From the NCBI GenBank assembly GCA_903926465.1, contig CAIYJE010000041.1, positions 1 to 60,464 on the forward strand: a stretch of DNA of 60,464 bases, in the 5' to 3' direction. The position numbers were made by a program, and so were the translations under genes. The DNA comes from an uncultured Planctomycetales bacterium (GTDB lineage Bacteria; Planctomycetota; Planctomycetia; Isosphaerales; Isosphaeraceae). This document shows positions 38,984 through 60,464 of the stretch, piece by piece. A model generated the notes under the pieces. It searched no databases. It was not told where the DNA came from and was given only the letters and a program-made list of their open reading frames with translations. Positions within the stretch are counted from its first letter, which is position 1; each line of letters starts with the position of its first letter.

Positions 38984-41900
38984 ATGAGTCGCTTCCAAGA
39001 GAGTCAGCCAGATCGGAACCTGCGGCGTCGGTGGCGGAGCCAAGCTCAGCGCCGGTCACACGCGTTACTTGGGCTGGATCTGCTGGAAAACCGGCAGTTG
39101 CTTGCCGTTCCAGGTTCGGCCCCGCCGGCGTGGCACCCAACCAGCCAAGACCCGCTGAATGTTCAGAATGGGCCGCTGGCCAATGCGGGCACCCAGATCA
39201 TTCAGGCGTATCAGGATTACCTGAAGTTTAAAGTGGCCTCCGGCGGCAGCGTGCCACTTAGCCAGTTCCAGCCCAGCAACACCATGCTGATGACGCGGAG
39301 CGGCCTGCTAGGCGTGAATGTGAGCATTTACGGTGATACGACGGCCCTGGTCAAGGTACTCAGCGATCCTGCGGGGATCGCCATGACTGTGACCCAGAGC
39401 GATGCCACGTTGGGACTCATTGAAGGTTACGTGAGCCCGGCTAACTTGGTGAGTCTGGCGCAATTGGCCACCACCATTAACGGTCAGCCGGCGGGGGTGG
39501 TTAGCTATGGGCCAATGGACAAGCCCATGACCTCGGGTTCGAGCACGCAGGCGGTCAAGGCGTTCCAGTTGCCGGCGGCTCTCCAGCAATTTCCGGGCAC
39601 CGACGGATCGGGCGTGACGCTGGGGATTCTCTCGGACTCCATCAGCCTCTATGCAGGGGGGCTGAATGATTCGGTCGCGGCCAACGCCGCGCCGCCGATG
39701 AACCGGATCAAGGTGCTTGAAGAAGGCCCCTATGGTTCTGACGAAGGTCGGGCCATGCTGGAGGTGGCGTATGACATTGCCCCGGGGGCCAATTACGCCT
39801 TCCACACTGCCTTTGCTGGCGAACTTGACTTTGCCCAAGGCATCAAGGACCTATCAACCAACGCCAATGCTCAGGTGATTGTGGATGACGTTTCCTACTT
39901 CAGCGAACCGGCGTTTCAGCCCGGTCCGATCGAGCAGGCCGTGACCACCGTGGTCAAGACCCAGAATCGGGTCTACTACTCTTCGGCCCGCAACGCCGCC
40001 GACCAGGGTTATCTTTCCAGTTTCCGGCCAGTAACCGATACCGTGGCTGGCGTAACTGGCATGTTCCAAAACTTTAACCCTATGGGAGGCAAGCTCACCC
40101 AATTGCCAGTGACTGTTACCCATGGTGGGTACGTTAATTTTCAGTATGACCAGCCATTCTACCAGTCCAACGGCGTGACCTCTCAGGTTGATGTCTACTT
40201 CCTGGATAGCACTGGCAAGGTCGTGGCGTCTGGAACCGCCAATAATATTGCCACACAAACCCCTCAGCAGGCCATCGATCTCACTGGTTTTGATGGTCAA
40301 ACCCTTTACATGGCCGTCAATGTAAGCTCTGGTCCTGCCCCGGCGCATATCTTCGCGGCTGGCTGGGCTGCCCAGGTTTCTTTCTCCAAGCAGTTCGGTA
40401 GCGCTGGCGGTACCAGTTACCCCACCACCACCGGCCATAATGCACCGTTGGATGGCATTGGTGTGGGAGCCGTTGATGTGCGGAGCATCCCACCATTCAG
40501 CAACACCACGCCGATTCCGAGTGAATCCTTCAGTTCGGCCGGGCCGCGTATCCTCTCGTTCGATGCCAAGGGCAATCCCGTTGCCGGTGGTGCTCAGGTT
40601 TTGCAGCGGCCACAGATTTCAGCCCCCGATGGGATCCAGACCACGTTTTTCATTCAGGGCTATTACGTTGGCAATGAGAAGCAGCCCAGCTTTTTCGGCA
40701 CCTCGTGCGCTGCTCCTGATGCGGCCGCTCTCGCGGTGCTGATGCGTCAGTTGGCTCCGGAGGCCACCCAGCAAGAGATCCTGAACGCCATGATCGACTC
40801 CTCGATCTCGATCAATGGCAAGCCGGCGGGTGCGGGCAACTGGGATCCGCTGGGTGGTTCGGGCCTGATCCAGGCTCCCGCGGCCCTCAACGCCATCGCT
40901 CCGCCCGTGGCAACCAACCTCACGGCGGTCGTGAATTCCGGTCCTACGGTCACGCTGAGCTGGACGGTTTTGAGCCCCACCGTCACCAGTTGCACGATCG
41001 AGCGGCTGATCAATGGCGAGTACGTGCCCATTGGCACTGTGGATGCCCCCACCACCCAGTTCACCGATACGACGGTTCAACCGGGTGGGATTTACACCTA
41101 CCTTGTGATTGCGAACACCAGTCAAGGGCCCGGCAAGGCCTCTTCCTCGGTGACCGTGAACATTCCCGTTCTGCCGGCCACGCCCCTGGATCTTCAGGTG
41201 CTGGGCGTGAATACCAACTGGGTGCTGCTCGGTTGGTCGGCCGTGGCCCCGCCCGTGGATGGCTACGTCATCTCTCGCCGCACCGGCCAGAATCCATTCG
41301 CGGTCGTTGTCACCCTGCCGGCCACCGCCACCCAGTACGTGGATACCAACCTGACGCCGGGCACCAGCTATGACTATCAGGTGCTGTCTTACAACCTTGC
41401 CGGCAAGTCTGCCCCCGCCAGCGTGACCGCCACCACCAACCTGACAACCGCCATTCTGCCGCCTCCCTGGATTGACAGTGATATCGGTTCCCCGACCATT
41501 GCTGGCGCGGCGGCTTACGCCAATGGGGTGTTCACCATCAACACCCGCAGCCTGGACCCCTCGGGAAGTTCTGATCAGTTGAACTTCATTCATCAGACGA
41601 TCACCGGAGATTCGGTGATCGTGGCACGGGTGGCCGAACTGGGAGACACCAACTTCTGGGCCAAGGCCGGCCTGATGATTCGCTCCTCGCTCGACCCGGC
41701 GAGCACGTTTGCGTTTGCCAGCCTTTCTCCGGGCGGTGGCAGCCGGTTCCAGTGGCGGTCAACCACGGGCCAGGTGGTCAGCGATCAGGGCGGCCCTGAA
41801 CTCAAGGCCCCGGCCTGGCTAAAACTGGTGCGTGAGGGGAACACGTTCTTTGCCTATGGTTCCAAGGACGGATCCAACTGGGGCGAGATTGGCGCGGCCA

Positions 41901-44236
41901 GGTTGAACATGCCGGCCACGGTGGAAATTGGCATGGCGGTCACCTCGTACACCACCTCGCTGTTCAATACCTCCAAGTTTGACAACGTGTCGGTGGCCAA
42001 GCTGGATTTCAGCCACGGGGTGGCGATCAATACCGGCGGCACGGACGCAGGTTACTTCCAGGCCGATGCCTACAGTGACGGTGGGTTCCTGGCTTCGACC
42101 ACCGGCACGATCAGCACCACCGGGGTCACTCGGCCCGCGCCTGAGCCTGTGTACCAGACGGCCATTCAGGGTACCGGGTTCAGCTACACCATTCCCAATC
42201 TCACGCCCGGCGGCACCTACCAGGTCCGGTTGCACTTTGCGGAATTCCAGTACTTGGCCGCTGGCCAGCGGCAGTTCAACGTAGCGATCAACGGCCAGCC
42301 AGTCCTGACGAATTTCGATATCTTCAAAACCGCCGGGGGTAACGACAAAGCCAATGTCCAGGAGTTCCTCGCCACGGCCGATGCCAGCGGCCAGGTAACG
42401 ATTGCGTTCACCCAGGGCGCTGTGGGAGATCCCCAGGTCAACGGCATTGAACTGGTTGCCAAGGGGGTGCTGATTCAGGCGGCGGCCCCCGCGCCCACGG
42501 TTGATAACCCCTTCACCGGGGTGGTCGCCACGTTCAACTCGCTCGACCTTCATGCGGTGGCCTCAGACTTTGTGGCAGCCGTTGACTGGGGCGACGGCAC
42601 CGTGAGCAACGGCACCGTGGTGGTGAATCCCAGTGGTGGCTTCCAGGTCTTGGGAACTCATACCTATACCCAGGTTGGCCCGGTGAACTTCAGCGTGACG
42701 GTGACCGGTGCTGCGGGCGAGCAAGCCAAGGCCACCGGGGTGGCGACCGTGCTGGCGTTGCCTCTGGATGTGACGCCGCAGGTTGTCACAACGTCCGAGG
42801 GGGTGCCACTCACGAATACCGTGCTGGCCACGTTCCTGACCCAGGATCCGCTGCCGAGTTCCAGTTACCTGGTTTCCATTCTCTGGGCCGATGGTAGCTC
42901 GGTCGATCTCAGCAGTGGTTCCGTGACCCAGTCTGGCAACACCTTCTCGGTCCTGGGTACCCACACCTACGCCGAGCAAGGGACCTATGTGGCGGATATC
43001 ACGATCACGGTCGCCGCGCACAACGGGGTCGATGCCGTGGTGGTACCCGTGGAGGTGCCGATCACGGTGACCGAAACCCCGCTGGTGATCACGCCTGGCC
43101 CGGCTCTGGCGGCAACCATCGGGGTACCATTCACCAATGCCGTCCTGGCCACGTTCACCGACCCTGCCGGTGCCGACGATCCCAGCTATTACTTGGCCAC
43201 GGCTGACTGGGGCGATGGTACCACCAGTCCGGTGGCGGTAACTGTGAGCGGTGAGCAGTTCACGATTTTGGGCAGCCATACCTACCAGGCGCTGGGGAAC
43301 CAGGCGGTGGTGGTGACAATTCGCGATCAGGCGGGCGATCTCCTGGGTACCGTCAGCCTGACGGCCACAGTGAACCAGATTCCGCTGGTGGGTGGTCTGA
43401 ATGCAAGCAGCGATAGTGGTGCCTCGAACCATGATGGCATTACCAGCGTCAAGGCACCGACGTACCAGGGAACCGCACCGGCCGGTTCCGTGGTTACCCT
43501 CAAGCTTCAGCCAAGTACGGGCAGCACGGGTGCGGTCTCGGCTACCGGCCAGGCCGACACCAGCGGCCACTGGACGATTGTGGTGCCCCGGGCGCTGGCC
43601 GATGGCAAGTACACGGCCACGGCCAGTACGGCAGCCACCAGTTCGAACCTGGGTTCTCTCTGTATTGACACTGCGGGGGCCAAGATTCTCTCGGTCCAGC
43701 TTTTTCGTGGGGCGGGACAGATCAAGCTGGTGATTCAAGACGCCTTGGGCGGGCTTGATCCCAAGACTTTGCTGAACCCGGCACTTTACAGTTTTGTGTC
43801 CACTGCTTCCGGGGTGGGTTCGCCACTAACGGCCGCCGATATCCAGGTGAAGTCAGGCGCTGGAAGCACGGCCCCTCAAACCGTGATCCTGACCCCGCTC
43901 CATGGAGCAGCGTTGACCGCCGCCAATTACTCGCTCACAGTCTATGCTGCCAACCAGGTCGATCTGGCCGGCAACCAGCTGGATGGCAAGTTCAGTGGTA
44001 AGCTGCCTACGGGCACGGGTAGTGCGGGCACGGACTTTGCGGCCATCATCAGTGGCTCAGGCAGCCAGACCACGGTCTCGGCGATTGGCTCAAGCTATGT
44101 CCGGGGCGTGTCCCCCGTGCCCCGGGTGCCCAAGGTGGCGGTGCATCCGTTGACCGGATTTGGTCGCGTGGCGATGTCACACGCGGCTCGTCCCCAGTTG
44201 GTTCGCGCCTTATCCAGCAAATCTGCCAAGAAGTGA
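38984..44236 (+). CDS. Giant exported multidomain protein with sedolisin-like peptidase region
   Basis: A 1750-residue protein. The N-terminus is basic and carries LDLLENRQLLA (about 29-39), the planctomycete export-associated LExRxLL motif. Residues 200-620 form an S8/S53-like peptidase fold: GTDGSGVTLGILSDS near 205, DEGRAMLEVAYDIAPG with a candidate catalytic Glu near 253, and FGTSCAAPDAA with a candidate Ser near 572. Two fibronectin-III-like domains follow (640-815), a DUF1349-like segment (826-1004), a malectin-like domain (1008-1163, VRLHFAEFQYLAAGQ), three PKD-like domains (1170-1465, VDWGDGT, ADWGDGTTS) and Ig-like segments to the end. The whole layout suggests a secreted polysaccharide- or protein-binding surface protein. 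Whether the peptidase is active is uncertain. Confidence 0.85.
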   Translation: MSRFQESQPDRNLRRRWRSQAQRRSHALLGLDLLENRQLLAVPGSAPPAWHPTSQDPLNVQNGPLANAGTQIIQAYQDYLKFKVASGGSVPLSQFQPSNTMLMTRSGLLGVNVSIYGDTTALVKVLSDPAGIAMTVTQSDATLGLIEGYVSPANLVSLAQLATTINGQPAGVVSYGPMDKPMTSGSSTQAVKAFQLPAALQQFPGTDGSGVTLGILSDSISLYAGGLNDSVAANAAPPMNRIKVLEEGPYGSDEGRAMLEVAYDIAPGANYAFHTAFAGELDFAQGIKDLSTNANAQVIVDDVSYFSEPAFQPGPIEQAVTTVVKTQNRVYYSSARNAADQGYLSSFRPVTDTVAGVTGMFQNFNPMGGKLTQLPVTVTHGGYVNFQYDQPFYQSNGVTSQVDVYFLDSTGKVVASGTANNIATQTPQQAIDLTGFDGQTLYMAVNVSSGPAPAHIFAAGWAAQVSFSKQFGSAGGTSYPTTTGHNAPLDGIGVGAVDVRSIPPFSNTTPIPSESFSSAGPRILSFDAKGNPVAGGAQVLQRPQISAPDGIQTTFFIQGYYVGNEKQPSFFGTSCAAPDAAALAVLMRQLAPEATQQEILNAMIDSSISINGKPAGAGNWDPLGGSGLIQAPAALNAIAPPVATNLTAVVNSGPTVTLSWTVLSPTVTSCTIERLINGEYVPIGTVDAPTTQFTDTTVQPGGIYTYLVIANTSQGPGKASSSVTVNIPVLPATPLDLQVLGVNTNWVLLGWSAVAPPVDGYVISRRTGQNPFAVVVTLPATATQYVDTNLTPGTSYDYQVLSYNLAGKSAPASVTATTNLTTAILPPPWIDSDIGSPTIAGAAAYANGVFTINTRSLDPSGSSDQLNFIHQTITGDSVIVARVAELGDTNFWAKAGLMIRSSLDPASTFAFASLSPGGGSRFQWRSTTGQVVSDQGGPELKAPAWLKLVREGNTFFAYGSKDGSNWGEIGAARLNMPATVEIGMAVTSYTTSLFNTSKFDNVSVAKLDFSHGVAINTGGTDAGYFQADAYSDGGFLASTTGTISTTGVTRPAPEPVYQTAIQGTGFSYTIPNLTPGGTYQVRLHFAEFQYLAAGQRQFNVAINGQPVLTNFDIFKTAGGNDKANVQEFLATADASGQVTIAFTQGAVGDPQVNGIELVAKGVLIQAAAPAPTVDNPFTGVVATFNSLDLHAVASDFVAAVDWGDGTVSNGTVVVNPSGGFQVLGTHTYTQVGPVNFSVTVTGAAGEQAKATGVATVLALPLDVTPQVVTTSEGVPLTNTVLATFLTQDPLPSSSYLVSILWADGSSVDLSSGSVTQSGNTFSVLGTHTYAEQGTYVADITITVAAHNGVDAVVVPVEVPITVTETPLVITPGPALAATIGVPFTNAVLATFTDPAGADDPSYYLATADWGDGTTSPVAVTVSGEQFTILGSHTYQALGNQAVVVTIRDQAGDLLGTVSLTATVNQIPLVGGLNASSDSGASNHDGITSVKAPTYQGTAPAGSVVTLKLQPSTGSTGAVSATGQADTSGHWTIVVPRALADGKYTATASTAATSSNLGSLCIDTAGAKILSVQLFRGAGQIKLVIQDALGGLDPKTLLNPALYSFVSTASGVGSPLTAADIQVKSGAGSTAPQTVILTPLHGAALTAANYSLTVYAANQVDLAGNQLDGKFSGKLPTGTGSAGTDFAAIISGSGSQTTVSAIGSSYVRGVSPVPRVPKVAVHPLTGFGRVAMSHAARPQLVRALSSKSAKK

Positions 44237-44908: not shown

Positions 44909-47900
44909 ATGCGCAGTCGTATGCTGGCTGATCGTGGTTCTCGGTCTCGCAAGATTCGCAGTCGGTTCTTCACCGAGGGGTTTGACCTGGAGTGTCGAAC
45001 CTTGCTGTCGGTGGTGGATGTTCTGAGTTATCGCGATGCCCAGCCCAACACCAACTACCAGCCCAACACCGGCCTCAATACATCCGAGACTTCACTCCAG
45101 CCTTCGAACGTGAACCTGAACACGTTTGGCAAGCAGTTTGAAACTCAGGTCGATGGTCAGGTTTACGCGCAGCCGCTGGTCAAGACGTCGGTCAACATCA
45201 CGGTCGGTTCGGAACCTGGGTTGCACAACGTCGTGTTTGTCGCGACCCAGCATGACAGTCTGTACGCAATGGATGCCACCAGTGGCCATATCCTTTGGAA
45301 AGACAGCTTTATTGACCCGGCGCATGGCATTACCACGGTAACCGCCACCGACGTTGGTTCCTCGGACATCACGCCCGAGATTGGGATCACGAGCACCCCG
45401 GTGATCGATCCCAAGACGAACATTCTTTACCTGGTGGCCAAGAGCAAGGTGGTGCGGGAGGTTGGAGCCGATTACCTGCTCACGATGCACGCCATCAATC
45501 TGGCCGATGGCACCGAGGCCCTGGGCGGACCGGTGGTAATGGCCGATACCTACTGGGATGGCCTTGATGCCAGTGTGTACGGCTATGTGAGCGGACCTTC
45601 GGTGCTTGGTACCGGTGACGGGTCGGTGGGCGGACTGGTGTCTTTTAATGCGTTACGCGCATTGCAACGGTGTGCGCTCACGCTTTATAACGACCAGGTG
45701 TATGTGATGACGGCCTCGCACGGTGACGCGCCGCCGTACCATGGCTGGATTCTGGGTTACAGCACGGCCAATCTTTCGCTCACAACGGTGTTCAATGCCA
45801 CGCCCAACGGTATTGATGGGGGATTCTGGGAGTCGGGCGCTGGCATTGCCATTGACCCCCAGGGGTTCCTGTATGTGGCCACCGGAAACGGCACCTTTGA
45901 CACGTCGTTCGATGCCAATGGGTTACCGATTCTGGGAAATTACGGCAATACCCTGCTAAAACTGGCCATCGATCCCACCTACACCCGTACGGTCAACGGC
46001 TGGGGCCTCAAGGTGGTGGATTTCTTCACCCCCTCCAATCAAGACCTGCTGGATGCCATTGATGCCGACTTCGGCTCCAGCGGACCCATGATCTTGCCCG
46101 ATTCGGCCGGTTCGGCCGCTCATCCCCACCTGATGACGGTGATGGGCAAGGAAACCCGGATGTTCCTGGTCGATCGAGACAACATGGGGAAGTTCAACCC
46201 CGGCGGTGAACAGGTTGTTCAGATCCTCTCCAATAATCTCAACAGCTCATTCGCCTCGCCCGCGTTCGCCGGTTCGACGATGTATATCGCCACCCGGGGA
46301 GATGTGAACAAGGCGTTCACGATTGCCAATGGTGCCATCCAGGCTCCGGCCACTTCCCAGTCCAGGCAAACCTTCGGCTACCCAGGGGCCAATCCCAGTC
46401 TCTCGTTCAATGGGTCTTCTTACGGCATTGAATGGCTGCTGGACCCGACCTCCTCGCAACTGTTCGCGTTTAACGCGAATGATCTGCTGAATCCACTGTA
46501 TGGTAGCAATCAAGCGGCCGGTAACCGTGATAGCTTGACCAGTGTGACCAAGTTTGATGTGCCGGTGGTGGCCAACGGTATGGTTTACGTGGGCACCAGC
46601 ACCTCGATCGCCGGCTTCGGTCTCTTCCCCAATCCTCCGACCTCCGCCAGCTTTGTCAACAAGAACACCACCACCCAGGGAAGCTGGAATGATGCTTATG
46701 GCACCGAAGGGTTCTCTATCAGCCAGGACCCAAGTGTCAACAATCCGAGCTTGCCCTACAACGTGACGGTGAACGTCAGTCAGGCCACGCCGATCGTTTG
46801 GAACGGGTCGACCACGGACCCCCGTGCGCTGCTCAAAGCCGCCCCCAATGCCACCGATAACATTGCGGCCGCGTGGAGTGGCAGTTCGTTTGCCATCGAC
46901 GTGCGCATCAATGATGGTCTCACCCATCAGATCGCCCTTTATGGCCTGGACTGGGATAATCAGGGCCGCAACGAGACGGTCCAGTTGATTAACGACGCTA
47001 CCGGGGCCGTGTTGGACACGCAAACGATTTCCAGCTTCCAGAACGGAACCTATCTGGTCTGGAATGTCCAGGGGAATGTCACCTTCAAGGTCACCAGCAA
47101 CAATGCTACGCCGGCCGTGATCAGCGGCCTGTTTTTCGGCGGCCGTGTCCCCGTGCCTGGGTCCGCCAGCTTCGTGAAGCAAGATACCAGTACCCTGGGA
47201 ACCTGGAAGCCCGCGTATGGGGCCGATGGTTTTAATGTGGCCCAGGACCCCAGCGCTAATAATCCCAGCATTCCTGCGTATGCTCAGGTCAAGATCAGTA
47301 ACAATCTGAATTACACCTGGACGGCCAGCACCAGCAATCTCTCGGCTCTACAATCGGCCGCCGCCGGCTCAACCAACCGAATTGCCGCCATCTGGTATGC
47401 CGACAACTCGTTCAATATCGACGTCAAGATCAGCGATGGCAAGACCCACCAGGTGGCTCTGTACGCGCTCGATTGGGACAGCACTACCCGTGCTGAGAGT
47501 ATCCAGGTCATCTCCGACGTGACCGGTCAGGTGCTCGACACCCAATCGCTGGCCAACTACCATGCGGGTGTCTACGCTGTCTGGAACATCTCCGGCGATG
47601 TCACGTTCAAGATCATAGACACCGGCACTTCTAATTCGGTGATCAGTGGGATCTTCTTCAGCACCCCGCCCGCGGTCACCAGGCAGCCGGCCAACGTGAC
47701 TGTGAGTGCTGGCAGTACAGCCACATTCAACGCCACGGCTGCCGGCAACCCTGCACCTGACGTGCAGTGGCAAAGTCGTACGAATTCAGGGAGTAGCTGG
47801 GCCAACATTGCCGGGGCAACCACGGCCACCTACACAACGGCTTCTACCTCCGCCGCCAACTCGGGCACCCAGTACCGGGCCGTGTTCACCAGCACGGCGG

Positions 47901-50329
47901 GAACCGCAACCACCACCGCGGCCATTTTGACGGTGAGCGGTGCCCCGACCATCACCACGCAACCGGCCAGCGTTGCCGTAAACGCAGGGAGCACGGCCAC
48001 CTTCACGGCAGCGGCTTCTGGGACCCCTTCCCCCAGCTTGCAATGGCAGGTCAGTTCCAACGCCGGCAAGACCTGGACCAATCTCGCCGGTGCCATCTCA
48101 ACCTCGTATACCACGGCCGTGACCACCGAGGCCCAGAACGGCATCCAGTACCGCGCTATCTTTACCAATGGCGCAGGCTCGGCGACCACAGCCACGGCTC
48201 TGCTTACCGTAAACTACGCACCAGCCGTAGTCACCCCGCCTGCAGATACGATGGTGAATGCCGGCAGCACGGCCACCTTCACAGCGTCGGCCTCGGGCAA
48301 CCCCACGCCCGCCGTGCAATGGCAGAGCAGCACGAATTCCGGCAGCACTTGGACCAACATTGCCGGCGCCACCTTGCCTGGTTACACCACGCCCGTCACC
48401 CTGGCTGTGAACAATGGTACCCAGTACCGAGCCGTGTTCACGAACTCGGTAGGCACCGCCACCAGTGCGGTGGCCACGCTCACCGTGAACTCTGCGCCAG
48501 CTGTGACCACCCAGCCGGCCAGCGTCACCGTGACGGCCGGATCTACGGCCACGTTCACGGCGGCGGCGTCAGGCAATCCCACGCCGACCGTGCAGTGGCA
48601 GTTCAGCACGAATTCCGGCAGTAGCTGGACGAACATCAGCGGCGCAACCTCGGCCACTTACACCACACCGGCTACCGTGGCGGGCAACACAGGGACCCAG
48701 TATCGGGCCCTGTTCACGAACGCGGTAGGCACCGCCACCAGTGCGGTGGCGACACTCACGGTCCAGGGAAGTTCCAGTGATTCGGCCCTCTTCACCAAAC
48801 TGGATACGACCACCCAGGGAACCTGGAAACCCAGCTACGGGGCCGAGGGGTACAACGTCAGTCAGGACTACGGCGGGAATAATCCAGTGGCACCGGCCTA
48901 TGCCACGGTCACGTTTAGCAATGCCCTGAATGCCACCTGGAATTCCTCAACCACCGAGGTCAGAGCGCTCCAGAAGGCTGCTCTCAACTCCACGACACGC
49001 ATTGCCGGCACTTGGTATGCCGATTCCAGCTTCACCATCAAGGTCCAGGCCAGCGATAGCAATCTGCATCAGGTGGCTCTGTATGCCTTGGACTATGACA
49101 AGGTGGGCCGGAGCGAGACCATCCAGGTGCTTAGCACTGCGACCGGTGCCGTTCTGGATAGCCGGAGTATCTCATCGTTCCAGAACGGGGTGTATTTAGT
49201 CTGGAATATCACAGGCAGTGTGACGTTCAAGGTGACCAACACCGGTCCTGCCAACGCGGTTCTGAGTGGCCTGTTCTTTGGATCGGCTCCCAACACGGGG
49301 ACCACCGCTAGCTTTACCAGGCAAGACACCACCACTCAGGGCACCTGGAAGCCCAGCTATGGTGCCGATGGCTTTGATGTGAGCCAGGACACCAACGCCA
49401 ATAATCCCGGTTTCCCGGCTTATGCCTCGGTTGGCTTCAGCGGTGCGAATAACGCAGTCTGGACGACATCCACCACCGATGTTCGCGCCCTCCAGAAAAC
49501 CGCGGTCAGCTCCACCGACCGGATAGCCGGCACCTGGTACAACGATACGAGCTTCTCGATCAGTGTTGAGTTGAAAGATGGAGCTATACACCAGGTGGCG
49601 CTCTACGTGCTGGATTATGACAAGGTGGGCCGGAGCGAGACTATTCAGGTGATCAACAACAGCACGGGAACCGTGCTGGATACCCGCAGTCTGGCGTCGT
49701 TTGGGAATGGGGTTTACATGGTCTGGAATGTGAGCGGTAGCGTGACTTTCAAGGTCACCAATACCGGTCCCGCCAATGCGGTTCTGAGCGGCCTGTTCTT
49801 TGGTACCGCCCCATCCAGTTCCACCAACGCCAGCTTCCTCAAGCAAGATGCCACCACACAGGGGACCTGGAAAACCAAGTATGGAAGTGATGGGTACTCC
49901 ATTAACCAGGACCCCAGCGCCAACAATCCCTCGCTGCCATCGTATGCGTCGTTCAGCGTTGCGAGCGCGGCCAACTTTGTTTGGAACCCCTCCACCACCA
50001 ATGTGCGGGCCTTGCAAAAAGCGAGCCTGGGCGCCACCGATCGACTTGCGGCAACCTGGTTCAATGGCGATGCCTTCTCGATGAATGTGGGGATCAATGA
50101 TGGCAAGTCTCACACGGTGGCACTTTACGCGCTGGACTGGGACAACAGCGGTCGGACCCAGATGATCCAGGTGATTGATTCCACCACCTACGCCGTGCTG
50201 GATACCCGCAGTCTGGCCGCGTTCCAGAACGGGGTTTATCTGGTCTGGAACATCACCGGCAATGTGACCTTCAAGGTCATCAACACCGGGTCCGGAAACG
50301 CGGTGATCAGCGGAATCTTCTTCGGCTGA
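44909..50329 (+). CDS. Giant exported beta-propeller protein with five repeat modules and four Ig-like domains
   Basis: An 1806-residue protein. It starts with a basic segment and FDLECRTLLS, the LExRxLLS motif tied to export in planctomycetes. Residues 60-575 form a PQQ/quinoprotein-like propeller (VYAQPLV, FVATQHDSLYAMDATSGHI, GVGWIL-like blades). Then comes a module of about 165 residues, present five times: roughly 580-750, 751-918, 1290-1460, 1465-1635 and 1638-1806. Each begins near T-Q-G-x-W and contains RALQKA, HQVALYALDWD and a closing SG(L/I)FF. Four Ig-like domains (920-1288), each starting near TTQPASV, sit between modules two and three. A GAGG site lies about twelve bases before the ATG. 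The role is probably adhesion or ligand binding outside the cell. A close paralogue begins at 57567. Confidence 0.85.
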   Translation: MRSRMLADRGSRSRKIRSRFFTEGFDLECRTLLSVVDVLSYRDAQPNTNYQPNTGLNTSETSLQPSNVNLNTFGKQFETQVDGQVYAQPLVKTSVNITVGSEPGLHNVVFVATQHDSLYAMDATSGHILWKDSFIDPAHGITTVTATDVGSSDITPEIGITSTPVIDPKTNILYLVAKSKVVREVGADYLLTMHAINLADGTEALGGPVVMADTYWDGLDASVYGYVSGPSVLGTGDGSVGGLVSFNALRALQRCALTLYNDQVYVMTASHGDAPPYHGWILGYSTANLSLTTVFNATPNGIDGGFWESGAGIAIDPQGFLYVATGNGTFDTSFDANGLPILGNYGNTLLKLAIDPTYTRTVNGWGLKVVDFFTPSNQDLLDAIDADFGSSGPMILPDSAGSAAHPHLMTVMGKETRMFLVDRDNMGKFNPGGEQVVQILSNNLNSSFASPAFAGSTMYIATRGDVNKAFTIANGAIQAPATSQSRQTFGYPGANPSLSFNGSSYGIEWLLDPTSSQLFAFNANDLLNPLYGSNQAAGNRDSLTSVTKFDVPVVANGMVYVGTSTSIAGFGLFPNPPTSASFVNKNTTTQGSWNDAYGTEGFSISQDPSVNNPSLPYNVTVNVSQATPIVWNGSTTDPRALLKAAPNATDNIAAAWSGSSFAIDVRINDGLTHQIALYGLDWDNQGRNETVQLINDATGAVLDTQTISSFQNGTYLVWNVQGNVTFKVTSNNATPAVISGLFFGGRVPVPGSASFVKQDTSTLGTWKPAYGADGFNVAQDPSANNPSIPAYAQVKISNNLNYTWTASTSNLSALQSAAAGSTNRIAAIWYADNSFNIDVKISDGKTHQVALYALDWDSTTRAESIQVISDVTGQVLDTQSLANYHAGVYAVWNISGDVTFKIIDTGTSNSVISGIFFSTPPAVTRQPANVTVSAGSTATFNATAAGNPAPDVQWQSRTNSGSSWANIAGATTATYTTASTSAANSGTQYRAVFTSTAGTATTTAAILTVSGAPTITTQPASVAVNAGSTATFTAAASGTPSPSLQWQVSSNAGKTWTNLAGAISTSYTTAVTTEAQNGIQYRAIFTNGAGSATTATALLTVNYAPAVVTPPADTMVNAGSTATFTASASGNPTPAVQWQSSTNSGSTWTNIAGATLPGYTTPVTLAVNNGTQYRAVFTNSVGTATSAVATLTVNSAPAVTTQPASVTVTAGSTATFTAAASGNPTPTVQWQFSTNSGSSWTNISGATSATYTTPATVAGNTGTQYRALFTNAVGTATSAVATLTVQGSSSDSALFTKLDTTTQGTWKPSYGAEGYNVSQDYGGNNPVAPAYATVTFSNALNATWNSSTTEVRALQKAALNSTTRIAGTWYADSSFTIKVQASDSNLHQVALYALDYDKVGRSETIQVLSTATGAVLDSRSISSFQNGVYLVWNITGSVTFKVTNTGPANAVLSGLFFGSAPNTGTTASFTRQDTTTQGTWKPSYGADGFDVSQDTNANNPGFPAYASVGFSGANNAVWTTSTTDVRALQKTAVSSTDRIAGTWYNDTSFSISVELKDGAIHQVALYVLDYDKVGRSETIQVINNSTGTVLDTRSLASFGNGVYMVWNVSGSVTFKVTNTGPANAVLSGLFFGTAPSSSTNASFLKQDATTQGTWKTKYGSDGYSINQDPSANNPSLPSYASFSVASAANFVWNPSTTNVRALQKASLGATDRLAATWFNGDAFSMNVGINDGKSHTVALYALDWDNSGRTQMIQVIDSTTYAVLDTRSLAAFQNGVYLVWNITGNVTFKVINTGSGNAVISGIFFG

Positions 50330-57566: not shown

Positions 57567-60464
57567 ATGCTAAGTCGTCTGCTGTCTCATCGGCCCCGTC
57601 GGTCTTACAAAGCTCGCACTCGGCTCTCGATTGAGGGAGTTGATCTGGAGGATCGAACCTTGCTCTCGCTGGTGGATGTGTTGGGCTATCGTAATGCCCA
57701 GCCCAACACTGTCGGTCAACCCAACACCGGTCTGAACGCTCAGGAGACCATTCTCCAGCCTTCGAACGTGAATCTGACTACATTCGGCAAACAGTTCGAG
57801 ACTCAGGTGGATGGTCAAGTTTATGCCCAGCCGCTGGTCAAGACCGGCGTGAACATCACCGTGGGTTCGGAACCTGGGCTGCATAACGTCATTTATGTGG
57901 CGACCCAGCATGACAGCCTGTATGCCATTGACGCCACGAGCGGCCATATTCTCTGGCATGATAGCTTCATCGATCCGGCGCATGGGGTCACCACCGTGGC
58001 CTGGAGTGATGTTGGGTCCGATGATATCGTCCCCGAGATTGGGATTACCAGTACTCCGGTCATCGACCCCAACACGAACATTTTGTATCTGGTGGCCAAG
58101 ACCAAGGTGCTGCAAAGCGTGGGCGCTAATTATGTGCTGACGCTCCACGCCATTAACCTTACCAATGGTCAGGAAGCGCTAGGCGGTCCGGCCGTGATCG
58201 CCGATACCTACTGGAGCGGCATTGATGCTAGTTTCTACACCTATGTGAGCGGACCGGCGATCCCTGGCACCGGTGATGGTGCCGTGAATGGGATCGTGAA
58301 CTTCAATGCGTTGCGCGCTCTTCAGCGGCCCGCACTCACGCTTTACAATAATCAGGTCTACGTGATGACGGCATCGCACGGCGATGTCCCGCCCTACCAC
58401 GGCTGGATTCTTGGTTATAGCACCGCCGATCTCTCGCTCAAGACCGTCTTCAATAGCACTCCCAATGGGATGGATGGTGGGTTTTGGATGTCTGGGGCCG
58501 GCATTGCCATCGACCCGCAAGGCTCCATGTACGTACCCACGGGGAATGGCACGTTTGACACCACGTTTGATGCCAACGGCTTACCGATCCACGGGAATTA
58601 CGGAAACACGCTCTTGAAATTGATGGTGGATTCTACCTACACCCATACGGTGAACGGGTGGGGCCTGAAAGTGGTCGATTACTTCACCCCTTCCAATCAA
58701 GCTGACTTGAATGGTGCAGACTTAGACTTCGGCTCGAGCGGCCCGATGATCCTGCCCGATTCGGCAGGCTCGACGGCTCATCCCCACCTCATGACCATGA
58801 TGGGGAAAGATCCCCGGATGTTCTTGATCGACCGAGACAAGATGGGTCGGTTCAATCCGGTCGGAGAGCAGGTTGTTCAGATTGTCCCGAGCGGCCTGAA
58901 TAGTTCGTACACGTCTCAAGCGTTTTCAGGTTCGACCATGTATATCGCAACCCGCGATGGCCTCAACATGGCGTACACCATTTCCCAGGGTGTGATCTCG
59001 TCCCCCGCGTTCACGCAATCCCTTCAGACATTTGCCTACCCAGGGGCCAATCCGAGCCTGTCGTTCAATGGTGGTGATTACGGTATTGAATGGGTTCTTG
59101 AGCGAACCTCCCGCCAGTTGCTCGCCTATAATCCGACGAATCTGGTTTCCCCGATTTATGGAAGTAACCAGGCCGCGAATCAGCGTGATGCTCTCTCCAG
59201 TATTGTCAAATTCACAGTCCCCGTTGTTGCCAATGGGATGACTTATGTGGGCACCGATAACTCGATCGCCGGGTTTGGGCTGTTCCTGAATCCGCCCACC
59301 TCGGCGAGTTTCGTGACCAAGAATACGACGACTCAAGGCAGTTGGAACGATGCTTATGGTGCTCAAGGCTACAATATCAGTCAGGATTCCAGTGCCAATA
59401 ATCCTCGTTTGCCTTACAACGTGACGATGAATGTCAGTCAGGCATCGCCTCTGGTGTGGAATCCTTCCACGCTGGACCCCCGTGCCCTGCTCAAGGCCGC
59501 CCCCAATGCCAGCGACGGGATCGCCGCGGCTTGGTCTGGCGCCAGCAATTTCTCAATCGACGTGCGAATGAATGACGGTCTGAGCCATCAGGTGGCATTG
59601 TACGCGCTGGATTGGGATAACCAGGGTCGGAATGAGACGATCCAGGTGATCAATGATGCCAACGGAGCCGTACTTAACACGCAAACGATTTCCAGTTTCC
59701 AAAATGGAACGTATCTGGTGTGGAACGTCCAGGGGAATGTCACCTTCAAGGTGACCACGAACAATTCTGCGAGTGCGGTGATCAGTGGTTTGTTCTTCGG
59801 AGATCGGGTACCTGTGCCTGGTGCCGCAAGCTTTGTCCAGAAAGACACGAGTACCCGGGGGACCTGGAAGGCGACCTACGGTCTCGACGGATTCAATGTG
59901 GCCCAGGATCCGAGTACGAATAATCCAACGATTCCGGCGTACGCGCAGGTGGCGATCAGTAATCACCTGAATTTCACCTGGGCCGCGAGTACCTCGGCTC
60001 TCTCCGCGCTTCAGCAAACGGCTCCTAACTCGACCAATCGAATTGCAGCGGCCTGGTTTAACGATCCAACGTTCAGCATCGATGTGAAGCTCAATGACGG
60101 TAAGACGCATCAGGTTGCGCTTTATGCGCTCGACTGGGACAGTACCAGGAGTGAAACGATTCAGGTGATCTCGGACGTGACGGGGCAGGTACTCGACACG
60201 CAATCGCTTACAAATTTTCAAAATGGCGTCTACGCGGTATGGAACATTTCCGGAGATGTGACGTTCAAGATCATCAATACCGGCCCCTACAACGCGGTGC
60301 TCAGTGGGATCTTTTTCAGTACCCCCAGTACCCCACCCCTCATCACCACTCAACCGACCAGTGCCACGGTCAATGCGGGGAGCACGGCCACCTTCACCGC
60401 TGCGGCGTCTGGTACACCGACCCCCAGCGTGCAGTGGCAGGTGAGCACCAATTCCGGCAGCTCC
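57567..60464 (+). CDS. Third giant exported protein, paralogue of the second (3' end outside window)
   Basis: 966 codons run uninterrupted to the window edge. After a basic start comes VDLEDRTLLS, the LExRxLLS export motif. Then follows the same propeller-like head as the protein at 44909 (QPSNVNLTTFGKQFETQVDG, YVATQHDSLYAIDATSGHI). At about 578-745 and 750-920 are two copies of the 165-residue module (TQGSWNDAYGAQGYN and RGTWKATYGLDGFN), and an Ig-like domain begins near 925 (TTQPTSATVNAGST). Order and spacing match the paralogue exactly over this length, with roughly 70-75% similar residues by eye. AAAGG lies about eleven bases before the ATG. Confidence 0.88.
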   Translation, partial: MLSRLLSHRPRRSYKARTRLSIEGVDLEDRTLLSLVDVLGYRNAQPNTVGQPNTGLNAQETILQPSNVNLTTFGKQFETQVDGQVYAQPLVKTGVNITVGSEPGLHNVIYVATQHDSLYAIDATSGHILWHDSFIDPAHGVTTVAWSDVGSDDIVPEIGITSTPVIDPNTNILYLVAKTKVLQSVGANYVLTLHAINLTNGQEALGGPAVIADTYWSGIDASFYTYVSGPAIPGTGDGAVNGIVNFNALRALQRPALTLYNNQVYVMTASHGDVPPYHGWILGYSTADLSLKTVFNSTPNGMDGGFWMSGAGIAIDPQGSMYVPTGNGTFDTTFDANGLPIHGNYGNTLLKLMVDSTYTHTVNGWGLKVVDYFTPSNQADLNGADLDFGSSGPMILPDSAGSTAHPHLMTMMGKDPRMFLIDRDKMGRFNPVGEQVVQIVPSGLNSSYTSQAFSGSTMYIATRDGLNMAYTISQGVISSPAFTQSLQTFAYPGANPSLSFNGGDYGIEWVLERTSRQLLAYNPTNLVSPIYGSNQAANQRDALSSIVKFTVPVVANGMTYVGTDNSIAGFGLFLNPPTSASFVTKNTTTQGSWNDAYGAQGYNISQDSSANNPRLPYNVTMNVSQASPLVWNPSTLDPRALLKAAPNASDGIAAAWSGASNFSIDVRMNDGLSHQVALYALDWDNQGRNETIQVINDANGAVLNTQTISSFQNGTYLVWNVQGNVTFKVTTNNSASAVISGLFFGDRVPVPGAASFVQKDTSTRGTWKATYGLDGFNVAQDPSTNNPTIPAYAQVAISNHLNFTWAASTSALSALQQTAPNSTNRIAAAWFNDPTFSIDVKLNDGKTHQVALYALDWDSTRSETIQVISDVTGQVLDTQSLTNFQNGVYAVWNISGDVTFKIINTGPYNAVLSGIFFSTPSTPPLITTQPTSATVNAGSTATFTAAASGTPTPSVQWQVSTNSGSS

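Follow-up and report, generated by a model that had tools for sequence, protein, structure and literature searches.

The repeated module and its host proteins

The window, by which we mean the whole 60,464-nt stretch of DNA analysed here, corresponds to contig C41 of a planctomycete genome (6.89 Mb in 207 contigs; G000). Its forward strand carries an open reading frame for a protein of 1806 aa (44909..50329), which is composed of an N-terminal export motif, a predicted beta-propeller, two copies of a module of about 165 aa, four immunoglobulin-like (Ig) domains and three further copies of the module, directly followed by the stop codon. Modules 1 and 2 occupy positions 46649..47143 and 47168..47665; modules 3, 4 and 5 are located at 48788..49285, 49310..49807 and 49832..50326, and the final residue of module 5 lies immediately 5' of the stop codon. 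The intervening block (47666..48787), whose ends were set at the module borders, was identified by Pfam as I-set domains (PF07679, E 1.7e-29). Two more modules (59307..59804 and 59829..60323) are present in a paralogue on the same strand (57567..60464). The paralogue starts with an ATG at 57567, also carries the export motif and the propeller in front of its modules, and breaks off at the start of an Ig-like stretch, cut short at 60464, where contig and window both end. Its N-terminal 580 residues are 76% identical to those of the 1806-aa protein.

The initial annotation, made from the sequence alone, had claimed a module present five times with Ig-like domains in between and seven times when the paralogue is included. 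This arrangement is borne out by the coordinates, and the seven copies share 47-82% pairwise identity at the protein and 59-76% at the DNA level. All real pairs score at least 429, compared to a maximum of 24 in 500 shuffles (one pair shuffled), and a chance origin of the repeat is therefore excluded. The linkers between tandem modules appear, by eye, short and rich in small residues. A neighbouring protein of 1750 aa (38984-44236) contains fn3, a true malectin domain (E 8e-21) and Big_13, with a PKD match below the cut-off, and none of the modules.

The N-terminal region (45002..46648) is predicted to form a quinoprotein/BamB-type beta-propeller. An AlphaFold2 model based on 13 sequences (pLDDT 83.3, pTM 0.87) was matched best by 8gy2_A in Foldseek (E 4.6e-11), followed by PQQ alcohol dehydrogenases and BamB; among PDB sequences, no relative was found at E<=1. 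Propeller homologues also occur in open frames of 557-681 aa (contig ends disregarded) in five relatives (G296, G302, G307, G319 and G324), all of them without a module match. A fourth homologue in the same genome (G000:C31:21218-22837) is 50% identical and lies in a frame of 1765 aa, and its contig has no module match.

In front of the propeller, the sequence LECRTLL (44987..45007) matches, by regular expression, the planctomycete LExRxLL-type N-terminal export motif described in the 'Cell Surface Proteins' section of PMC8567305. According to that section, 52 genes of Tuwongella immobilis, 20 of them detected, carry a related motif, which is presumed to be an export signal. LECRTLL thus belongs with the RRLxxExLExRxLLA-like N-terminal motifs of exported planctomycete proteins, and export of the 1806-aa protein is predicted; the profile PF07595 gave no match to it at E<=1 (Pfam). 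The motif was found in nine of the ten module-bearing open frames of the same genome whose start lies inside the stretch (among 13 testable), and the truncated paralogue and L044 raise this to 11 of 12 N-termini, with L039:1461 lacking it. Among shuffled N-termini, 2.3% match the LExRxLL-type expression; the strict LExR-x-LL/LM/ML form occurs in 11 of the 12 real N-termini versus 0.03% of shuffles. Within the family Isosphaeraceae, 20 of 22 open frames from relatives have the motif. Carriers in other Planctomycetota and in other phyla are mostly without it and, by eye, often show a signal-like hydrophobic start.

Relation to described families and predicted fold

To search for a described family, 135 full modules were reduced to an alignment of 113 rows (A1) by removing rows of >80% identity. 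For the whole 1806-aa protein, the Pfam matches over cut-off were Ig models and NCBIfam gave none. When the 113 modules were compared to Pfam and NCBIfam at E<=0.1, no family matched more than five of them and none did so with a convincing E-value; the best match among PDB sequences had an E of 0.93. The module had been annotated as having no described function, and it has no credible match in these libraries. Scattered matches to TonB_C, Rotavirus_VP3 and CBM_AftD (0.0094) were taken as noise, and the T9SS C-terminal sorting domain TIGR04183 matched one of the 113 modules (E 0.029), which does not place the module in that family. The best NCBIfam match was Mep72 (E 4.5e-4, one member of the 113). 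In the same genome, the Mep72 profile (NF052434) matched one module at 16.9 bits (E 0.005), compared to a curated cut-off of 645 for the whole protein, and covered only profile positions 423-510 in the C-terminal part of the model. This lead is weakened because a search at E<=10 also gave matches in 4 of 14 control genomes.

CBM35 (PF16990), CBM6 (PF03422) and malectin (PF11721) were absent among the best 25 of the 29 Pfam families matched by the 113 modules at E<=0.1, the remaining four of which rank below E 0.077. A PF11721 search of the whole genome returned three places, none of which is a module; the true malectin domains are located elsewhere. Profile comparison by hhalign yielded a score of 19.9 for malectin (P 0.023), with 17.0 for the best of 50 shuffles and 17.7 for a reversed control. 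This alignment spans 102 columns and sets the LDWD loop of the module over the AE-F-x-Y loop of malectin, and is not significant. CBM35 and CBM6 scored 12.5 and 14.3, against shuffled maxima of 14.05 and 15.69 (alignments that comprise just 2 and 3 sequences). By profile comparison, membership in any of the three families did not reach significance. A literature search by titles and abstract openings, with subscription papers largely outside its range, found no published account of the module.

The AlphaFold2 model of module 3, made with the 113 sequences, is all beta (pLDDT 97.9, pTM 0.93). Its Foldseek matches comprise CBM35, CBM6, CBM61, an iota-type binding component, Cry proteins and malectin at E-values of 2e-5 to 1e-3. 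The best of them is the CBM35 structure 2w47_A (E 2.2e-5; TM 0.45 by query and 0.52 by target), with TM-scores by query not exceeding about 0.47 and only about 0.5 overall. By VIA-align, 59 of 994 chains reached a Z of at least 8. Among these were the C-terminal part of a Bacteroides glucuronidase (6d50_A; Z 10.7, rmsd 3.0, 123 aligned), ANXUR2 (Z 9.8), the CDTb receptor-binding domain (Z 9.5), human malectin (9ikp_A; Z 9.2, rmsd 3.2, 132 aligned) and a carbohydrate-binding domain of a pectate lyase (8wc1; Z 9.2, rmsd 3.1, 120 aligned); APC10/Doc1 was matched as well. Fold matches in BFVD were weak (best E 6.9e-5) and mainly to phage tail, lyase and unnamed proteins. At the level of the fold, the module is predicted with high confidence to be an antiparallel jelly-roll sandwich of the galactose-binding-like superfamily. 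The carbohydrate-binding fold suggested earlier is right in this sense, as the model comes nearest to CBM35, CBM6, malectin and comparable galactose-binding-like domains. The profile search and structure prediction that the initial annotation had suggested thereby place the module outside the characterised families checked and within a confidently modelled fold.

Sugar binders and non-binders alike have this fold, as do protein binders. Plant ANXUR1 has the same fold, and PMC6038381 reports no detectable binding for the sugars tested. Within A1, W13 (113/113), G18 and P36 are invariant, and Y99 (112/113) and D102 (102/113) nearly so. Position 103 is a tryptophan in 90 of 113 rows and aromatic in 86%; modules 3 and 4 of the 1806-aa protein have a tyrosine here. 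According to the DSSP line of the model, residues 101-108 form the loop after strand 93-100, and we infer that this L-D-W-D loop with D102 and W103 is a candidate binding loop.

CBM35 and CBM6 modules are appended to extracellular enzymes and share the jelly roll with the module. In contrast to them, the module comprises about 165 rather than about 130 residues (Foldseek target lengths), forms tandem C-terminal arrays and did not match these families among the 25 best-ranked Pfam families. Malectin is likewise similar in fold, but the three true malectin domains of the genome sit apart from the modules.

Spread, placement and cargo of the arrays

The genome contains 50 module matches, some of them partial, in 16 genes: the two in the window, two each in L039, L042 and L043, and one each in L040, L041 and L044-L049. 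Two of these genes are broken. In L045 (5599-7488, contig C5), the array gene runs in one frame with three single stop codons, which marks a decayed gene whose array is otherwise conserved. In L044 (3693-10047, contig C3), the array is divided over two overlapping open frames in different frames, by a frameshift or an assembly error. Outside L045, 45 modules are at least 140 aa long. Within the family (f1), 10 of 37 genomes, our genome included, had module matches, and none of the 22 genomes of class-mates outside the family did. In a sample of 294 genomes from the phylum, 13 matched with one module and 20 with the 113-row alignment, our genome being included in both counts.

A genome_contigs scan with a single module as query returned no relative, and the same scan with alignment A3 returned 33 loci, some identical to loci from the other searches. 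The records behind them are titled as Planctomycetota, Verrucomicrobiales, Acidobacteria (Bryobacterales, Pyrinomonadaceae and others), Chloroflexi and one MAG of Cryptobacteroides (Bacteroidota). Whole-genome searches of twelve genomes behind these loci gave 1 to 17 matches each; taxa represented by a single contig are less certain, since MAG contigs can be misbinned. In one relative (L073:1234-8901, G316), twelve tandem modules end a 2556-aa protein and several of the linkers are identical, pointing to recent tandem duplication.

In IMG/VR, three contigs contain a module copy. Two of ten proteins near two of these copies matched PHROGs (invertase/integrase type and Mu Gam type), both on L114, where the module forms a single-module open frame of 304 aa from its ATG. 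Given these neighbours, a prophage-linked copy is possible; neither the three contigs nor the PHROGs check gave any sign that the module family originated in phages.

We then determined the distance of the last module from the stop codon, counting one entry per last module in open frames with the stop inside the stretch. Across all bacterial groups examined, the last module ends within 8 residues of the stop in 50 of 75 open frames and farther away in 25. It is flush with the stop in 10 of the 13 testable frames of our genome (four L045 fragments, the two L044 halves and the truncated paralogue being left out as decayed, frame-broken and truncated, respectively) and in 15 of 19 frames from Isosphaeraceae relatives (five open frames dropped). 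Of 19 frames from other Planctomycetota, 10 have it no farther than 8 residues from the stop, one being flush (six dropped). The further genome_contigs frames have it there in 15 of 24, 12 of them flush (two dropped; the 24 include four weak and partial matches, in L147 and L148). The count was made without one G277 match (C455) and without seven genomes reached by the 113-row alignment alone, and the three viral contigs, two of which have a flush last module, stand outside the sum of 75. The exceptions in our genome, L047, L048 and L049, continue for 288, 2045 and 551 residues beyond the last module. On contig C36 of G141 (L089 and L090), five genes within about 17 kb carry one module each, ending 5-7 residues before the stop; several begin with a WPQxRGPN-type sequence, which presumably resembles PQQ-like propellers.

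The cargo in front of the arrays varies. A Pfam scan of our genome, conducted without L044, identified a subtilase with P-domain, Big and MBG domains (L041), Big and YDG (L042:4716), RHS repeats (L042:12656), DUF7619 with Big (L043:12179), eleven DUF5650 repeats with FG-GAP and Big (L046), twelve Ig domains and dockerin (L048), and Laminin_G_3, beta-helix and Big (L049). L040 had no match, and L039:1461 and L043:5283 had Ig only. The propeller is present in both window proteins and, by homology, in L047, and BLAST of the N-terminal parts found full-length similarity only within this trio. Other pairs share mainly Ig/Big stretches, often one adjoining the array; L042:12656 and L043:12179 have 377 aa in common at 43%. 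Nine open frames of relatives carry subtilases (four), an aspartic protease, TIG, dockerin, and weakly matched beta-helix or Big_1. Ten frames from other phyla carry beta-helix, a lactonase-type propeller, subtilase, a kumamolisin prodomain, MBG_3, Big_7, rhamnosidase and a chitobiase C-terminal domain, two being without a telling match; in L145, the module copy terminates a protein with rhamnosidase domains. In another planctomycete lineage, carriers start, by eye, with a kinase-like region (L096) or a zinc ribbon (YCDxCGxRxPE-like; L092, L093, L107, L109, L110), and these are possibly sensors.

A tree of the 45 modules and 10 modules from relatives groups the modules of our genome together, except for the two of L048 (96/93). 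Modules 1 and 2 of the 1806-aa protein are paired in it with modules of the window paralogue and of L047; for modules 3 and 5, the partners are modules 1 and 2 of L039:2-1279. A single supported group (99/92) is made up of the modules located upstream in L042:12656, L043:12179, L042:4716 and L043:5283, and in three of these genes a Big_3_5 domain precedes the array. As modules labelled 'last' required 6 changes versus 10.2 when shuffled and those labelled 'upstream' 9 versus 13.3, with none of 500 shuffles as low in either case, both labels cluster, to which near-copies add; 'penultimate' is unclustered (10 versus 10.2). This phylogeny suggests that modules are shared as cassettes. Instead of the array alone, the shared unit may be the array together with the adjoining Ig/Big domain, because of the 377-aa stretch, the common Big_3_5 and the fact that L043:12179 runs off its contig. 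The propeller, the LExRxLL export motif, the module at the stop codon, the C-terminal cassette and the spread over several phyla go beyond the initial annotation.

Possible roles of the arrays

We tentatively favour, at somewhat less than even confidence, a reading in which a multivalent, glycan-binding C-terminal jelly-roll cassette retains exported proteins at the cell surface or in the matrix. It builds on the repeat, its C-terminal placement, the varied cargo and the shared-array phylogeny, and is in line with the predicted fold, the LExRxLL-type motif of the carriers, the propeller homologues in relatives that lack the module, and the copy behind rhamnosidase domains in L145. The module would then represent an undescribed galactose-binding-like jelly-roll family, whose copies, arranged in tandem, make up a C-terminal cassette of various exported proteins. 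Through its loops, a single jelly roll would most likely touch a glycan that belongs to the envelope or the extracellular matrix of the producing cell, and several weak contacts in tandem could add up to avidity. The cargo, be it a propeller, a protease or an adhesin-like stalk, might in this way be kept at the surface instead of diffusing away. Against this retention by glycan binding stand the lack of a significant sequence match to any family with proven sugar binding, the TM-scores of only about 0.5, the occurrence of the fold in protein binders and in ANXUR1, the 25 of 75 frames in which the last module is not terminal, and the kinase-like and zinc-ribbon carriers, for which anchoring in a matrix is not a sufficient explanation. 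As a parallel, Mep72 of Pseudomonas aeruginosa is, according to PMC4334185, an exported enzyme that carries a pair of carbohydrate-binding domains in tandem at its C-terminus; this architecture and the weak profile matches resemble the arrays. However, the Mep72 protease is cut free from these domains (same source), the reverse of the retention proposed here.

A broader version is rather doubtful. The module would here constitute a display system across phyla, in which one exchangeable glycan-binding C-terminal cassette anchors enzymes and adhesins in a self-made matrix; in Planctomycetota and Acidobacteriota, this would be functionally equivalent to anchoring through dockerin or S-layer homology. 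Type I dockerin is a short cassette on varied surface proteins that needs a cohesin partner. It resembles the module as a cassette on varied proteins and even occurs inside the carriers L071 and L048, but its fold is unrelated.

Alternatively, the arrays may be protein-protein or homophilic adhesion domains that build a coat or cell-cell contacts, which we regard as unlikely. The fold matches to APC10/Doc1 and the CDTb receptor-binding domain as well as ANXUR1 (PMC6038381), for which no sugar binding was detected, are consistent with such a role, as are the Ig, Big and MBG stalk domains that co-occur with the arrays, and 50 matches per genome would permit self-association. However, protease, propeller and rhamnosidase cargo fits retention of enzymes better, and no known homophilic domain is prominent among the matches listed.

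It is still less probable that the terminal module is a C-terminal signal for export, sorting or maturation, removed or recognised in secretion. Pre-peptidase C-terminal and T9SS C-terminal domains, which are C-terminal beta domains on varied exported proteins, are said to serve as such signals. The flush placement, the clustering of last modules in the tree and several proteases among the carriers would agree with this. In contrast to those domains, the module is multi-copy (up to 12 per protein in L073), also occurs internally and has no notable sequence match to them in Pfam or NCBIfam, the T9SS model reaching a single module at the E-value given above. Moreover, the last module is non-terminal in 25 of the 75 open frames, and a separate N-terminal export motif exists. 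Passive spacers lifting an otherwise anchored N-terminal domain off the cell would suit tandem repeats with short, small-residue-rich linkers beside Ig and Big domains, but are very improbable, as a spacer is expected between anchor and head, yet most arrays occupy the free end, and aromatic and acidic positions (W13, Y99, D102) are conserved.

As the module is missing from the checked libraries despite 50 matches in one genome, many large exported proteins have C-termini that are as yet unexplained. If retention by glycan-binding arrays holds true, the mechanism by which enzymes stay at the surface of planctomycetes and soil acidobacteria would become testable with one small, confidently modelled domain.
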